Shown here one piece after another: positions 10,935 through 16,860 of a stretch of 64,000 bases of DNA. Where the stretch lies: NCBI GenBank assembly GCA_002701395.1, contig NZVC01000008.1, positions 1 to 64,000 of the forward strand, given 5' to 3'. Position 1 is the first letter of the stretch, and each line of letters starts with the position of its first letter. Made by a program: the position numbers and the translations under genes. Under the pieces are notes generated by a model, which saw nothing but the letters and a program-made list of their open reading frames with translations, had not been told where the DNA came from and did no database searches. The stretch comes from Maritimibacter sp. GTDB taxonomy: Bacteria; Pseudomonadota; Alphaproteobacteria; Rhodobacterales; Rhodobacteraceae.

Positions 10935-10949
10935 TTAACAATCGGTTAG
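10935..10949. promoter_or_regulatory. CtrA-like box (TTAA-N7-TTAG) between fliF and fliL
   Basis: TTAA at 10935-10938 and TTAG at 10946-10949 with a 7-base spacer, one mismatch from the CtrA consensus. It lies 36 bp before the fliF ATG and 46 bp before the fliL ATG, so one site could serve both divergent operons. Confidence 0.55.
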
Positions 10950-10994
10950 TTCCCGACCGCTATACCGGCACCGTCACATTCGAAGGTGTCGGGC

Positions 10995-11501
10995 ATGTCC
11001 GAAGAGTCCGGGGCGCAGGATGAAGAAGCGCCGAAAAAGAAGTCGAAACTTCCAATGTTGCTGGGGCTCGTGCTGGCTATCGTCCTCGGCGGCGGCGGCT
11101 TTTTCGCGGTCTATTCCGGCATGATCCTTGCACCCGACGAATCGCACGCAGCGGAAGAGGACGAGGCGGCGATGTCGGCGGAAGAGGTCTTGGATCTGCC
11201 GCAGGTTGCATTCGTTCCGCTCGATCCGCTGGTCATCAACCTCGGGTCCGCTGCCGCCAGCAGGCACCTTAGATTCCGGGCGCAATTAGAAGTCGTTCCT
11301 GAATACCAGCAACAGGTGACCGACATGCTGCCCCGCGTGCTGGATGTGCTGAACAGCTACCTGCGCGCGGTGAATGCCGAAGACCTGGAAGATCCGACGT
11401 CGCTGATCCGGCTGCGCGCGCAGATGCTTCGGCGCGTGAAGATCGTGACCGGCGAAGGGCGCGTTAAGGACTTGTTAATCATGGAATTCGTTCTGAATTG
11501 A
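10995..11501 (+). CDS. fliL: Flagellar basal body-associated protein FliL
   Basis: Inner-membrane protein that surrounds the stator and supports motor torque. The 168-aa product has a short acidic/basic N-terminus, one membrane helix at about 21-43, and a periplasmic FliL/stomatin-like domain (VPLDPLVINLGS, RFRAQLEV, DMLPRVLDVLNSYLR, RLRAQMLRRVKIVTGEGRVKD). The ATG at 10995 is preferred over the GTG 9 bases upstream because AAGGTG sits at a good distance. It is the first gene of the stator and export operon. Confidence 0.93.
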   Translation: MSEESGAQDEEAPKKKSKLPMLLGLVLAIVLGGGGFFAVYSGMILAPDESHAAEEDEAAMSAEEVLDLPQVAFVPLDPLVINLGSAAASRHLRFRAQLEVVPEYQQQVTDMLPRVLDVLNSYLRAVNAEDLEDPTSLIRLRAQMLRRVKIVTGEGRVKDLLIMEFVLN

Positions 11502-11510
11502 GGGGGCCAG

Positions 11511-12053
11511 ATGGAGCTGATATCCGATATTCTGCTTATCGCGGGGGCGTTGGGCGCGGCTTTCTACTGTGTCGTCCTGTCCCGGCGTCTTCGGCGTTTC
11601 AACGATCTGGAAAAGGGTGTCGGCGGCGCCATCGCGGTGCTGTCCGCCCAGGTGGATGACATGACGAAGACGTTGCAGATGGCGCAAGGCGTCGCGCGCG
11701 GATCAAACGCATCGCTCGAAGACCTGACGACTCGGGCTGAAAGCGTATCCCGAAAGCTGGAGATCCTGGTCGCGGCGTTGCATGACCTGCCCGAGCCGGA
11801 GGCTGCCCGCGGCAATGAGAAGACCGCGGACAGCGCGTCTGAGACGCCCGCTTCCCAAGGGGCAGAGCCTGCGGTGGATGTCGCGGGGGATGCCTTTTCG
11901 CGCGATGCGGCTCGGGCTGAACCCATCGCCGCGGAGGCCGTGGCATCCAGCGCGGAAACGCCGCCTGTTGAACCGTCACCGTCCGAGCCGCAAGCGCCCG
12001 CAACCGGGCTGTTCCGGAGCAACCGAAGCTGGTTGCCGGAGGCGGCGGAATGA
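11511..12053 (+). CDS. DUF6468-like membrane protein of the flagellar locus
   Basis: Function unknown. The 180-aa product has one N-terminal membrane helix (about 5-22), then RRLRRFNDLEKGVGGAIAVL and a likely coiled coil to about residue 90, then an Ala/Pro/Glu-rich low-complexity tail. The pattern matches my recollection of DUF6468, a family found beside fliL and motA in alphaproteobacteria. It starts 9 bp after fliL, and its stop overlaps the motE-like start. A structural role near the stator is an inference from position. Confidence 0.7.
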   Translation: MELISDILLIAGALGAAFYCVVLSRRLRRFNDLEKGVGGAIAVLSAQVDDMTKTLQMAQGVARGSNASLEDLTTRAESVSRKLEILVAALHDLPEPEAARGNEKTADSASETPASQGAEPAVDVAGDAFSRDAARAEPIAAEAVASSAETPPVEPSPSEPQAPATGLFRSNRSWLPEAAE

Positions 12054-12679
12054 GAATTCCAAGACGTCGCAACCCATCGGCTCGCACCCGGCCCGCTCGG
12101 TCGCGCGGGGGCAGGGGGCCATTGTGGATCCTGGTCCTGATGCTGCTTGCCTCTGGGGGGCTGCGCCTGATGTCGGGCACCGGGCAGGTGATCGCCGAAG
12201 AGATGGCCGGGCTCGCCGGCGGGAACGAAACCGCGGATGCGAGCGCAGAGCCGGAAGCCTGTGATGTGCCCGAAGATATCGCGGCGGTGCTGGAGGCGTT
12301 GGACCTCAGGGAAGCTCGGATTGAGACGCGCGAGGCTGCGCTGGCAGACCGCGCGGCTGCGCTGAAGCTGGCGGAGGAAGAGATCGCGCGAAACCTGGCT
12401 GCTCTGCAGGCCGCCGAGCAAGAGCTCGAGGCGATGGTCGCGTTGTCGGAAGAAGCGTCCGAAAGCGATCTGGCACGGCTGACGACGGTATACGAATCGA
12501 TGAAGCCGAAGGAAGCCGCGGCCTTGTTCGAGACGATGGCACCCGATTTCGCGGCCGGGTTCCTGGGGAGGATGCGGCCCGACGCGGCGGCGGCCATCAT
12601 GGCGGGCCTTACACCAGAGACGGCCTATACCGTCAGCGTGCTTCTGGCTGGGCGCAACGCGAATGCGCCAACGGAATGA
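12050..12679 (+). CDS. MotE-like stator accessory protein
   Basis: The 209-aa product has a basic N-terminus, a membrane helix at about 24-38, a heptad-rich coiled coil at about 85-140, and a C-terminal MgtE-N-like helical domain (YESMKPKEAAALFETM, FAAGFLGRMRPDAAAAIMAG). This layout resembles the MotE family; in rhizobia MotE is a periplasmic chaperone of the stator partner MotC. The start overlaps the upstream gene by 4 bp, and motA follows after 78 bp. The family match is good, but the exact role here is inferred. Confidence 0.75.
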   Translation: MRIPRRRNPSARTRPARSRGGRGPLWILVLMLLASGGLRLMSGTGQVIAEEMAGLAGGNETADASAEPEACDVPEDIAAVLEALDLREARIETREAALADRAAALKLAEEEIARNLAALQAAEQELEAMVALSEEASESDLARLTTVYESMKPKEAAALFETMAPDFAAGFLGRMRPDAAAAIMAGLTPETAYTVSVLLAGRNANAPTE

Positions 12680-12757: not shown

Positions 12758-13627
12758 ATGATCGGGCTTATCGGTATCGCGGTGATCTTCATCATGGTGT
12801 TCGGCGGCTATCTGCTTGCCGGTGGCAAGATGTCGATCATTTTGAAATCCCTTCCTTTCGAGATGATGATGATCGGGGGCGCGGCCGTCGGCGCCTTCGC
12901 AATTTCGAACGACATGTCGGGCATCAAGCACACGCTCAAGGACGTCGGCAAGGTGTTCAAAGGGCCGCGCTGGAAGCACGAGGACTATCGCGATCTGCTT
13001 TGCCTGCTGTTCGAGTTGATCCGCCTTGCCCGGTCGAACGCTGTCGCGCTTGAAGAGCATATCGAGGATCCGCCAAGCTCAGCTATTTTCCAGCGATATC
13101 CGAAGATCCTGAAAGACCACGAGGCGATCGATCTGATCTGCGACACGTTGCGCGCAGCGTCGATGAACTACGACGACCCGCACCAGGTGGAAGAGGTCCT
13201 TGAGAAGCGGATGGAAGCCAACCTGCACCATGCGATGCACGGTAGTCACGCGCTTCAGACGGTCGCCGACGGCCTTCCGGCGCTGGGCATCGTGGCTGCC
13301 GTGCTTGGTGTGATCAAGACGATGGGCTCAATCGACCAACCGCCAGAAATCCTTGGCAAGATGATTGGCGGCGCGCTTGTGGGAACGTTTCTTGGGGTGT
13401 TCCTTGCCTACGGGCTGGTGGGCCCGTTCTCGGCCAAGGTTAAATCTGTGGTCGAAGAGGATGCGCATTTCTACCAGCTCATCCGCGAGGTTCTGGTGGC
13501 AAACCTGCACAACCACGCAACAAACATTTGTATCGAGGTCGGGCGTCAAAATACCCCCAGCCACTGCCGCCCCAGCTTTTCCGAGCTTGAGGACGCGCTG
13601 AAAGAGGTCAAGCAGGACGCGGCATGA
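12758..13627 (+). CDS. motA: Flagellar motor stator protein MotA
   Basis: Proton-channel stator subunit that presses on FliG. The 289-aa product has the expected four membrane helices: two near the N-terminus (1-55) and two at about 165-225 around the conserved GLPALGIVAAVLGVIKTMGS and GGALVGTFLGVFLAYG segments. The cytoplasmic loop between them carries the charged region that contacts the rotor. Its last 4 bases overlap the start of the 811-aa exported protein, so the two are almost certainly co-translated. Confidence 0.95.
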   Translation: MIGLIGIAVIFIMVFGGYLLAGGKMSIILKSLPFEMMMIGGAAVGAFAISNDMSGIKHTLKDVGKVFKGPRWKHEDYRDLLCLLFELIRLARSNAVALEEHIEDPPSSAIFQRYPKILKDHEAIDLICDTLRAASMNYDDPHQVEEVLEKRMEANLHHAMHGSHALQTVADGLPALGIVAAVLGVIKTMGSIDQPPEILGKMIGGALVGTFLGVFLAYGLVGPFSAKVKSVVEEDAHFYQLIREVLVANLHNHATNICIEVGRQNTPSHCRPSFSELEDALKEVKQDAA

Positions 13628-16059
13628 GGTGTTGGTTGGTCGCAGTCTTGCTCGCGGTTCTGGGGTTCCCGGCCTCTGCCCAATCGTTCCGCGTCGAATC
13701 TGGAGAGCATCCGGGCTACACGCGGTTGGCCATTCTCTTCGGCGCACTTCCGGACTGGCAGACCGGGCGAGTCCCGGGCGGCTATGAGGTGCGGACCGAC
13801 TTGCCAGACGCGACCTATCGGCTGCAGAAGGTGTTCAACCGCATTCCGCGGACTCGCGTCCGAGACATCCGCAATCTTCCCGGCGGCGGCCTAGCGATAG
13901 AGTCGGACTGTGACTGTCATCTCGAGGTGTTCGAGTACAACGGCAATCTGGTCATCGACATCCGGGATGGTCCGGCCCCTGAAGGATCGGCGTTCAACCA
14001 ACCCTTCCCGTCGGACGAACCGTCCCGTGAGACGGAGGTAATGCCGCCTATGCCACCTTTGGCCGACCCAGCCGCGCGGGTGCGGCCGGAACTGGCAGGG
14101 TTCGTGCCGGATCTTGCTTCTCCGGAGGCGTTCGAAACGGGTCGGCTCCGCACTCCCTACGCGTGGGAGGACACGCTTTCGCTGGATCTGGACGATGTGG
14201 CCGGCAACGCGGCATCGGACGTCCCGCAATCTGTCGATGATGCCGATGGCGATCCCGAGGTGGCGGGGCTTGGCATGGCGGACCGGCTGGACGCATTGCA
14301 GGCAGAGCTGATTTCACAGATCAGTCGCGCCGCCGGGCAAGGGGTCGTGGAACCGGATGCTTCGCAGATCGAGGCGGCGCTGGATCGCGCCCGAGCCACG
14401 GCGGAAACGTCACCGCCCGATGAGGCACCCCCAGAGCCGGCGCCCGACCCGGAACCCGCTGTCGAACCCGACCCGGAGCCGGTCGGCGAGGGCCTCGCAT
14501 TAGAGGATCGGGACAACATCAAGATCGAGACATCGGTTGATCGCGGGCGCAGCGGCCTTCGGGAAGTGCTGCCGTTGACGGAAGAGGGGGGCCACTGCAT
14601 CGCCGATGCTCAACTGGACCTACCGAACTGGGGCGCATCGCCTGAATCCGGCGCGGATTTGTCCAACTATCGCAGTCGGATCGTTGGGGAATTCGACGCG
14701 GCGGATGCCGACAGTATCGCGGCGCTTGCGCGAAACTATCTTTTCCTGACCTTCGGCCTCGAGGCGCGGGTGCTGATCCACGCATTCGGAACGCCGATCG
14801 AGGATGCCGAAATCTACGAGTCGATGTCTCACATCATGGACGATGGCTTCGCGCCGCCGGAGGGTCCCTTCGACGACCAACTGTCCTGCCGCAACCGGTC
14901 GGCGCTGTGGGCGGCATTGGCGCGACCACATCTTCGGCCCACCGACAGGATCGCGACGCCATCGATCTTGGCGGCGTTCTCCGAGCTTCCCGTGCACCTC
15001 CGCCGCCATCTTGGTCCGTACCTGGTTGAGCGTTTTCTGGAGGCCGGGGACGAACAGGCCGCAAGCACCGTCCGCAATGCCGTCGCCCGCGCGCCCGGCG
15101 ATCATGGGGACGGTTTCCGCATGATCGAAGGCGACATCGCGATGGGGGCCGGGGATGTGGCAGAGGCAGAGTCGCACTATGACGACATCGTTGCTTCGGA
15201 CGGACCGCTTGCGCCCGATGCACTGGTCAAGCTGATCGACACGCAGATCGCCAACGACGAACCGGTCTCGACAGCCGACCGTGACAATGCGGCCGCCATG
15301 GCCTTTTCCCACCGCGGCAACCCGACCGGGTCTGAGTTGATGCGGGTCTACCTTCGGGCGCTGGCCCACGGGGGCCAGATCCCCGAGGCGCTGACCGGGC
15401 TGGAAGACCAAGGCGATGCCTTTGACGAAACACTCCGACAGGACTTGCTACTTGAGTTTCTTGCGCTTGCCGCGTCCGACTCTCCGCAGGACCAGTTCCT
15501 GCGAACGGTGCTGCCTGGGCCGCTCGACCTGGGGGTCGATGACGAGGCCGACGCGGTGCGGCGGGCGATCGCGGAGCGACTAATCGGGCTTGGCCTGACA
15601 GAAGCGGCGCGCGCGCAGATGTCGGCCGATCTGTCAATCCCGTCTCCGGAGGACAGAGTGTTGTACGCTAGGGCCTATCTGGCGGAACAGAGACCCGATC
15701 TTGTGTTCGGCTACCTTGCCGGGTTGGAGGACACAGAAGCCGCGGTGCTGCGCGCGCGCGCCCACGAGATGGCGGGAGAGTACGAGGCGGCAGCCCGGAT
15801 CTACGGACAGATTGGCGACGCAGAGGCGCAGTCGCGGGCGTTGTGGCGCGCCGAAAATTGGGACGCCGCCCGCGAACTAACCGACGGGGCTGAACAGGCG
15901 GCCGCGGAGCTGGCAAGTACCATCGAGCCCGCGGAAGACACCCCCGCGCCGTTGCCTGAGGGGATGCTGTCGAATTCCCGTAGTCTTCTGGACAGCAGCC
16001 GCGAGAGCCGACGCATCCTGGACGACCTGTTGTCGGAAACCGCGCCGGCGGGCGGCTGA
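13624..16059 (+). CDS. Exported 811-aa protein coupled to motA, possible MotC-like stator component
   Basis: Not assigned to a named family. It has a clear signal peptide (1-19, ending ASAQS). An AMIN-like beta domain covers about 20-115, with a YTRLAILF strand and a CDCHLEVFEYNGNLVIDIRD end. A Pro/Glu-rich linker lies at about 255-295. A long helical C-terminal region (about 330-780) is rich in Ala/Leu/Glu and looks like TPR/SEL1-type repeats. The start overlaps the motA stop (ATGA) and sltF follows. Position suggests a periplasmic stator or ring factor, as MotC is in rhizobia, but this is inference. Confidence 0.7.
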   Translation: MRCWLVAVLLAVLGFPASAQSFRVESGEHPGYTRLAILFGALPDWQTGRVPGGYEVRTDLPDATYRLQKVFNRIPRTRVRDIRNLPGGGLAIESDCDCHLEVFEYNGNLVIDIRDGPAPEGSAFNQPFPSDEPSRETEVMPPMPPLADPAARVRPELAGFVPDLASPEAFETGRLRTPYAWEDTLSLDLDDVAGNAASDVPQSVDDADGDPEVAGLGMADRLDALQAELISQISRAAGQGVVEPDASQIEAALDRARATAETSPPDEAPPEPAPDPEPAVEPDPEPVGEGLALEDRDNIKIETSVDRGRSGLREVLPLTEEGGHCIADAQLDLPNWGASPESGADLSNYRSRIVGEFDAADADSIAALARNYLFLTFGLEARVLIHAFGTPIEDAEIYESMSHIMDDGFAPPEGPFDDQLSCRNRSALWAALARPHLRPTDRIATPSILAAFSELPVHLRRHLGPYLVERFLEAGDEQAASTVRNAVARAPGDHGDGFRMIEGDIAMGAGDVAEAESHYDDIVASDGPLAPDALVKLIDTQIANDEPVSTADRDNAAAMAFSHRGNPTGSELMRVYLRALAHGGQIPEALTGLEDQGDAFDETLRQDLLLEFLALAASDSPQDQFLRTVLPGPLDLGVDDEADAVRRAIAERLIGLGLTEAARAQMSADLSIPSPEDRVLYARAYLAEQRPDLVFGYLAGLEDTEAAVLRARAHEMAGEYEAAARIYGQIGDAEAQSRALWRAENWDAARELTDGAEQAAAELASTIEPAEDTPAPLPEGMLSNSRSLLDSSRESRRILDDLLSETAPAGG

Positions 16060-16137
16060 TCCGCCGCCGGTTACGGTTTGTTCAGGCGACTCGGTTACCT
16101 AGGACCCGATGGCCAGAATGGCAGCAAGGGTGCGGCG

Positions 16138-16860
16138 ATGGGACGAAAGGTCTACCGATTTCCTGTAAGGATCGTCGTCTTTCTTGGGCTTGTCAGTTCC
16201 TTTTTGTTGTACGGTGCGGTTGGCGTGCAGGCCCGCACCGTCAGCGATCTCCCCGGTTTGTGCGAAGACGCGGCACGACAGGTCTCTGCTGAAAGTGGCG
16301 TGCCGCTGGACGTGCTGCGTGCGATCGCCTTGACCGAAAGCGGCCGCGCAAACGGCGGCACGGTTCGGCCCTGGCCCTGGACCGTCAACATGGAAGGGGC
16401 TGGCAAGTGGTTCGAATCCCTGCCCGCCGCGCTCGCGTTCGTCGATCTGCATGTCTCTGCCGGGGCGCGAAGCTTTGATGTCGGCTGTTTTCAGATCAAT
16501 CACCGCTGGCACGGACACGCCTTCGGTTCGATCCGTGAGATGTTCGACCCGGTGGCCAACGCACGCTACGCCGCGAATTTCCTTGCCGATCTGCACCGGG
16601 AACTGGGGGACTGGAGCCTTGCTGCAGGGGCCTATCATTCCCGCACACCGGAACTCGCCGCGCGGTACCGCGCCCGCTTCGACGCCATACGCGTCAGCCT
16701 TGCGCCATCTGCGGTCCCGACAACGACCGCTGGATTGCCGCCTGACGACGCACAGACGCCAAATGGCTATCCGTTGATGGTCAGCGACGCGAGCGGCCAG
16801 ACGCTGGGTTCGCTTGTGCCCCTGACGGGTTCGGGTCGCGCCCTGTTCGCGGTGGAATGA
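16138..16860 (+). CDS. sltF: Flagellum-specific lytic transglycosylase SltF
   Basis: Cleaves peptidoglycan so that the rod can pass the cell wall. The 240-aa product has a signal peptide or membrane segment at about 11-32 and an SLT (goose-lysozyme-like) domain from about 40. The catalytic glutamate is E67 in ALTESGR, followed by FDVGCFQIN and ANARYAANFLADL motifs. The ATG at 16138, with AAGGG upstream, is preferred over a far-upstream TTG. The flagellar context matches SltF of Rhodobacter, which supplies the muramidase activity absent from its short FlgJ. Confidence 0.9.
   Translation: MGRKVYRFPVRIVVFLGLVSSFLLYGAVGVQARTVSDLPGLCEDAARQVSAESGVPLDVLRAIALTESGRANGGTVRPWPWTVNMEGAGKWFESLPAALAFVDLHVSAGARSFDVGCFQINHRWHGHAFGSIREMFDPVANARYAANFLADLHRELGDWSLAAGAYHSRTPELAARYRARFDAIRVSLAPSAVPTTTAGLPPDDAQTPNGYPLMVSDASGQTLGSLVPLTGSGRALFAVE

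Follow-up and report, generated by a model that had tools for sequence, protein, structure and literature searches.

Here we analyse an 811-aa open reading frame (ORF) encoded directly behind the stator gene motA in a window of 64,000 nucleotides, the whole stretch of Maritimibacter sp. DNA under study (Rhodobacteraceae; GenBank assembly GCA_002701395.1, contig NZVC01000008.1, positions 1 to 64,000). Sequence comparison identifies its product as a member of MotK, a family that was already named in 2024 and hence is not new, and in the reading that we regard as highly probable the gene would encode the MotK of a Fla2-type motor: an exported, wall-anchored spoke, comparable to PflA of Campylobacter jejuni, that links the MotE ring with the stators. 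This reading builds on the observed membership in the MotK family, the predicted fold and the conserved linkage to motA, while its functional part, namely the role in rotation, the binding to MotE and MotB and the polar focus, would carry over by analogy from Cereibacter sphaeroides, the only organism from which these properties are known.

MotK was described in 2024 in the Fla2 flagellum of C. sphaeroides, where it belongs to the cluster fliL2-pflI-motE-motA2-motK and is reported as a periplasmic protein of 652 aa whose N-terminus is AMIN-like and which also has stretches rich in proline and TPR-like helices (PMC10954123). In one of our loci (L093, genome G079), MotK is 652 aa and MotE 185 aa long, and MotE has Cys49 (29 + 20), all equal to the published C. 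sphaeroides values. BLASTP aligns the window protein (13624–16059; this and all features below are on the forward strand unless stated) with L093 MotK in two parts, 446 columns at 30% (E 2e-36) and 168 columns at 35% (E 7e-20), a MotK profile built from 33 relatives, L093 not among them, matches L093 MotK at E 4e-155, and the window MotE aligns with the 185-aa L093 MotE at 50% over 196 columns. The gene order fliF (opposite strand)/fliL-pflI-motE-motA-motK-slt-flhA-fliR is identical in the two loci. Both MotK proteins occupy the same place in the operon and share the leader-like N-terminus, the AMIN domain, the proline-rich linker, the TPR-like helices and two cysteines in the helical region; they differ in length (652 versus 811 aa), and the BLASTP alignment of the helical part stops at window residue 662. 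The first-pass annotation, made from the sequence of the window, had been unable to assign a named family; the similarity to L093 and the common gene order now supply one.

No Pfam or NCBIfam family reached its cut-off on the 811-aa protein, TPR matches of Pfam falling below it; Pfam AMIN was not found on it, and a weak AMIN-like match appeared in 6 of the 33 family members (best E 0.0099). Against solved structures, phmmer returned no match for the protein itself, and the MotK profile returned weak ones, the best being coatomer epsilon (E 0.00067). An AlphaFold2 model of the full protein computed from 79 sequences has a mean predicted local distance difference test score (pLDDT) of 84.1, with a confident AMIN domain and helical region and a linker of low confidence. 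The N-terminus MRCWLVAVLLAVLGFPASAQ (residues 1–20; 13624–13683) resembles a Sec leader as judged by eye, with a helix predicted at residues 2–13. It is followed by a predicted AMIN-fold domain (about residues 21–117; 13684–13974; mean pLDDT 93.9 for residues 1–135 taken alone), a Pro/Glu-rich linker (residues 118–301; 13975–14526) of mostly low confidence (pLDDT below 50 at residues 134–215 and 279–302, and again at 308–310), and helices from about residue 320 to 770 (14581–15933; pLDDT 85–98 per ten-residue block). Foldseek with the isolated AMIN domain found nothing at E ≤0.001, its best match being AmiC (4bin, E 1.9e-3), with small heat-shock proteins ranking next. A second structural aligner placed PilQ first (3jc8; Z 11.4, root-mean-square deviation (rmsd) 2.9, 99 aligned), then AmiC (4bin residues 34–145; Z 11.0, rmsd 2.3, 97 aligned), with the best heat-shock protein behind both (Z 8.0). 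The helical region is TPR-like by fold, with TPR superhelices as its best matches (Z 13.7); full-length PflA was absent from the fold-match lists. Predicted structure and fold matches together give the PflA-type order of AMIN domain, flexible linker and TPR arm, in line with the AMIN-like domain, Pro/Glu linker and long helical repeat region that the first-pass annotation had proposed; of the two checks it had suggested for these domains, structure prediction recovered both folds and Pfam alone was insufficient.

The linkage of motK to motA extends far beyond the window. The ATG of motK lies within the motA stop (ATGA, 13624–13627; motA 12758–13627), an overlap that had been noted before and is plain in the sequence. 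We examined the best 80 of at least 588 named MotA loci (L099–L178), a set from which the window's own records may have been left out; the closest among those listed is a metagenome-assembled genome labelled Maritimibacter sp. ih11. In 79 of the 80, an ORF matching the MotK profile follows motA directly, the remaining contig (L139) stopping 125 nt past motA. With the motK start taken as the in-frame start nearest to the motA stop, a choice that favours small gaps, start and stop overlap in all 79 measurable loci, by 4 nt in 70 and by 1 nt in 9. Since every measurable locus overlaps, the arrangement is not a chance feature. MotK is 641–849 aa long in these 79 loci, so that the earlier description of the window protein as "much larger" is fair when set against the 652 aa of C. 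sphaeroides but not among these loci. Upstream, fliL, pflI and motE are present in 79 of the 80 loci. The exception is Thalassococcus profundi (L147, 1–10867), in which the cluster is rearranged and no fliL, pflI or motE was found within 5 kb upstream of motA, where other flagellar genes were recognised by eye; motA, motK and flhA are nevertheless kept together, and we count this retention of the motA-motK pair in a broken cluster in favour of the spoke reading.

At the level of genomes, MotK was detected in 264 (E 1e-3) and MotA in 284 (E 1e-60) of 394 sampled members of the family: 262 contain both, 2 only MotK, 22 only MotA and 108 neither. The two MotK-only genomes comprise one whose contig breaks off beside MotK, at the expected site of motA (G068), and one that is 62% complete (G239). 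Among the 22 MotA-only genomes, 14 carry a distant MotA (52–56% identity). We read the regions of 18 of the 22, leaving out four that all have a distant MotA (G010, G204, G335 and G411); in the ten distant-MotA regions read, the window MotE, FliL and MotK queries matched nothing near MotA. The other eight genomes have a closer MotA (61–82%), and in five of them (G008, G125, G221, G365 and G398) the profile shows MotK beside it after all. As for the last three, the contig of G141 stops 127 nt past motA, the same motA-overlapping place is taken in G253 by a 608-aa ORF without a profile match that bears a CxC pair by eye, and in G027 (L081, 2400–7408) a 235-aa ORF that bears no similarity to MotK stands between fliL-pflI-motE-motA and flhA; MotK profile searches of these three whole genomes found none. 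The first-pass annotation had held that absence of the gene from related functional loci would refute its proposal. Such an absence is seen in G027; G141 and G253 are not decisive, and the 14 genomes with a distant MotA would count only if they build the same motor. Separately, a weak match to G051 in a direct search (query residues 210–293) fell in an unrelated ORF of low complexity by eye and was rejected, so that this search stands at 25 of 61 rather than 26.

Amid otherwise variable sequence, conservation scored over 79 sequences (the A2 alignment holds 78 of the 80 named loci, without L127 and without L139, whose contig lacks MotK) reveals two islands. The first is a linker segment at residues 222–242 (LDALQAELISQISRAAGQGVV; 14287–14349), overlapping a helix predicted at 216–238, and the second a predicted C-terminal helix at residues 781–806 (15964–16041); both can also be seen by eye in the 652-aa L093 MotK. 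Cys325 and Cys422 of the helical region are present in all 79 sequences, and Cys96 and Cys98 in 75 each; these cysteines may form disulphides.

What such a protein might do is best approached through its studied relatives. In C. sphaeroides, motK and motE mutants are reported to be flagellated yet paralysed, MotK binds MotE and, more weakly, MotB2, and a MotK-sfGFP focus at the flagellated pole requires MotA2 and MotB2 (PMC10954123). This phenotype, location and binding support the earlier suggestion that the Rhodobacteraceae motor has a stator partner in the periplasm comparable to MotC. The further wording, that the protein is "analogous" to the rhizobial MotC, stands for the partner role; a published proposal goes beyond mere analogy and treats the two proteins as distant homologues (PMC13023049). 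Like MotK, MotC of Sinorhizobium meliloti is described as a TPR-rich periplasmic partner of MotE (PMC13023049), but according to the available text of the reports it lacks an AMIN domain and is encoded behind motB (PMC10954123, PMC13023049), a likeness that we draw by description only. In the window, motB (1608–2459) is not directly followed by motK, which starts at 13624, so that the MotC-type placement is absent. The spoke model follows PflA. In C. jejuni, dimers of FlgY, a MotE relative, are reported to form the E-ring, which PflA spokes connect to the stators; PflA consists of an AMIN domain, a flexible loop and a TPR part, and its loss removes the stator density (PMC11870540). PflA and MotK thus share the AMIN domain, the flexible loop, the TPR arm and a partner of the same kind. 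On this model, MotK would be exported to the periplasm, where its N-terminal AMIN domain would hold peptidoglycan, and the flexible linker would allow this domain and the rigid TPR arm to lie apart. The arm would meet MotE, which is thought to form an E-ring around the MS-ring, with both the spoke geometry and the pairing of segments with partners conjectural, and contact of MotK with MotB would recruit stator units to the rotor and hold them there, much as a PflA spoke does. The overlap with motA may serve to keep the synthesis of scaffold and stator in step.

Several observations weigh against this picture. The N-terminal domain of PflA (9leq_A) matches the MotK AMIN domain only moderately (Z 6.9, rmsd 3.0, 85 aligned), level with small heat-shock proteins, and the TPR-superhelix matches are generic. 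L093 is taken to be C. sphaeroides from its protein lengths and MotE cysteine and not from its name. Within the motor scaffold of C. jejuni, no peptidoglycan is reported to be visible (PMC11870540), which makes wall binding by the AMIN domain less certain. The MotK focus of C. sphaeroides is reported to persist without MotE, though weaker (PMC10954123), and the C. jejuni flgY mutant to keep its stators and swim (PMC11870540, PMC13023049); contact with the E-ring may therefore be less important than this model supposes. In G398, MotK lies behind MotA, but the stretch read around it gave no FliL, PflI or MotE; the genome G027, scored as 100% complete, yielded no MotK; and Cys325 and Cys422 are not evident in the relatives outside the family.

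Other explanations fare less well than the spoke. MotK could serve mainly to help MotE and MotB assemble or stay stable, in the manner of a chaperone, instead of forming a lasting spoke, which would agree with the severely reduced MotE level reported for C. sphaeroides lacking MotK (PMC10954123) and with MotE having first been termed the MotC chaperone in S. meliloti (PMC13023049). However, MotB2 is described as not evidently changed in the motK mutant (PMC10954123), the polar focus of MotK-sfGFP depends on MotA2 and MotB2, and the AMIN and TPR build resembles the structural PflA, leaving this explanation improbable. Less likely still is that the main task lies in remodelling the cell wall or in coordination with SltF and the rings, and not with the stators, as the AMIN fold and the SltF-like gene next in the window might suggest: an SltF-like gene was found in only 35 of the 80 named loci (by a group profile that could miss divergent copies) against 79 of 80 with MotK adjoining MotA, and motK mutants of C. 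sphaeroides are reported to keep filaments and a similar level of hook protein (PMC10954123).

We next consider relatives of MotK in other alphaproteobacterial families. Among the likely distant homologues, Dshi_3259 and CC_2058 have been named (PMC10954123); the available text reports no BLAST similarity to MotK in Caulobacteraceae, linking relatives there by structure (PMC10954123), and describes PflA as lacking sequence conservation (PMC11870540). Our MotK profile matched 45 of 115 genomes of the class, 43 of them outside the family, mostly through the AMIN part in long frames. We fetched regions from 20 of these 43 genomes, mostly top-scoring and chosen for their MotK match, so that only the neighbouring genes count as independent evidence, as well as single stretches of G051, G422 and G433. 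With filters off, all 20 regions contain an ORF of 988–1354 aa matching the profile; default filters missed it in two (L200 and L208). G051 (L222) has, in an ORF other than the one rejected above, 1355 aa with two AMIN matches and MotE in its region, and two AMIN matches recur in several of the AMIN-TPR ORFs outside the family. The profile matches in L220 and L221 were rejected as AMIN domains of amidases. MotE was found in 18 of the 20 regions, the other two (L206 and L209) being cut by contig ends near the gene; the MotE, Slt, FliL and PflI profiles drew on the named loci with a few additions. A MotB-like ORF occurs in 13 of the 20 (in L203 only weakly, 1e-9) and was not found in 7; it mostly stands immediately before the AMIN-TPR frame or runs into it, with an exact 4-nt overlap in five (L197, L199, L201, L205 and L210). 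Nine of the 20 loci went into the MotB-like profile and match it by construction. From ten ORFs chosen for their MotB-like look, nine passed the Pfam MotB_plug cut-off, the second upstream ORF of L197 having no match. In these regions (L197, L199, L201, L202, L204, L205, L207, L209–L212 and L215, weakly L203), the MotB-like genes, sometimes two in succession, lie between motE and the AMIN-TPR gene and encode a MotB plug, often with OmpA. Our literature search for a MotB-like gene beside an AMIN-TPR scaffold, which covered few subscription journals, found nothing.

These large AMIN-TPR proteins share with MotK the profile similarity in the AMIN and TPR parts and a nearby MotE, but differ in their length (988–1355 aa), in the second AMIN match of several, and in often lying behind a MotB-like gene rather than motA; CC_2058 would be of this kind by the papers' description only. 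In an hmmalign alignment of the 20 ORFs, which leans toward the model, the 16 ORFs with a letter at the columns of Arg34 and Asp112 retain these residues; at the four MotK cysteine columns, Cys does not rank with the most frequent letters. As far as our literature searches went, a link to other families at the level of sequence profiles appears to be a small addition to what was known. The recurrence of an AMIN-TPR gene with motE, often behind a MotB-like gene, was counted in favour of the spoke reading. It is also tempting to go further and propose an AMIN-TPR motor scaffold common to the whole class, with MotK as its Rhodobacterales form and with a gene that repeatedly overlaps a stator gene (motA here, a MotB-like gene elsewhere), such that the two would be co-made and co-assembled, with residues 222–242 and the C-terminal helix gripping the stator or a neighbouring MotK; we offer this extension tentatively, with more doubt than belief.

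The remaining genes of the locus run on one strand in the order fliL, pflI-like, motE, motA, motK, SltF-like and flhA, with fliF divergent upstream. fliL (10986–11501) matches Pfam FliL at 1.8e-15; the pflI-like gene (11511–12053) is assigned by position and by phmmer in L093 (1e-31), Pfam DUF6468 remaining below cut-off (E 0.0016); motE (12050–12679), of the E-ring protein group of FlgY and FlbB, matches Pfam MgtE_N above cut-off (2.8e-07); and motA scores 371.5 bits with NCBIfam TIGR03818 (cut-off 303.8). Directly after motK, as had been noted, stands the SltF-like lytic transglycosylase gene (16138–16860, or from a TTG at 16078; Pfam SLT 3.6e-08). motB lies about 10 kb from motA (MotB_plug 74.4 bits at C47:1644–1802). 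Elsewhere in the source genome, contig C34 holds a second flhA and a further MotB, and contig C42 a MotB scoring equal to that of the window, in an assembly flagged as 9% contaminated. One cysteine of MotE is reported to be required for the protein to be stable in C. sphaeroides, as is its counterpart in S. meliloti. The window MotE has this residue (Cys71); of 81 aligned MotE sequences (window, L093 and 79 named loci), just 38 retain it and another 38 are without any cysteine.

Scanning with what we take to be the CtrA motif, we obtained 23 matches across the window against 14.7 expected, a weak signal since 5 of 100 shuffles reach as many. An imperfect palindrome (TTAA-N7-TTAG, two mismatches; 10935–10950) lies at the divergent fliF/fliL junction, where the fliF start is uncertain, an exact match (11463–11478) lies within the fliL coding region, and sites flank motB on both sides (1545–1561 and 2484–2500).

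Taken together, a protein known since 2024 from a single species is now found in 264 of 394 sampled genomes of its family, and its presence in other alphaproteobacterial families, previously linked by structure, can be followed at the level of sequence profiles. The MotB-like gene beside the same scaffold in those families is hereby brought to attention, and the two short conserved segments (residues 222–242 and 781–806) may offer handles on how the scaffold grips the stators.

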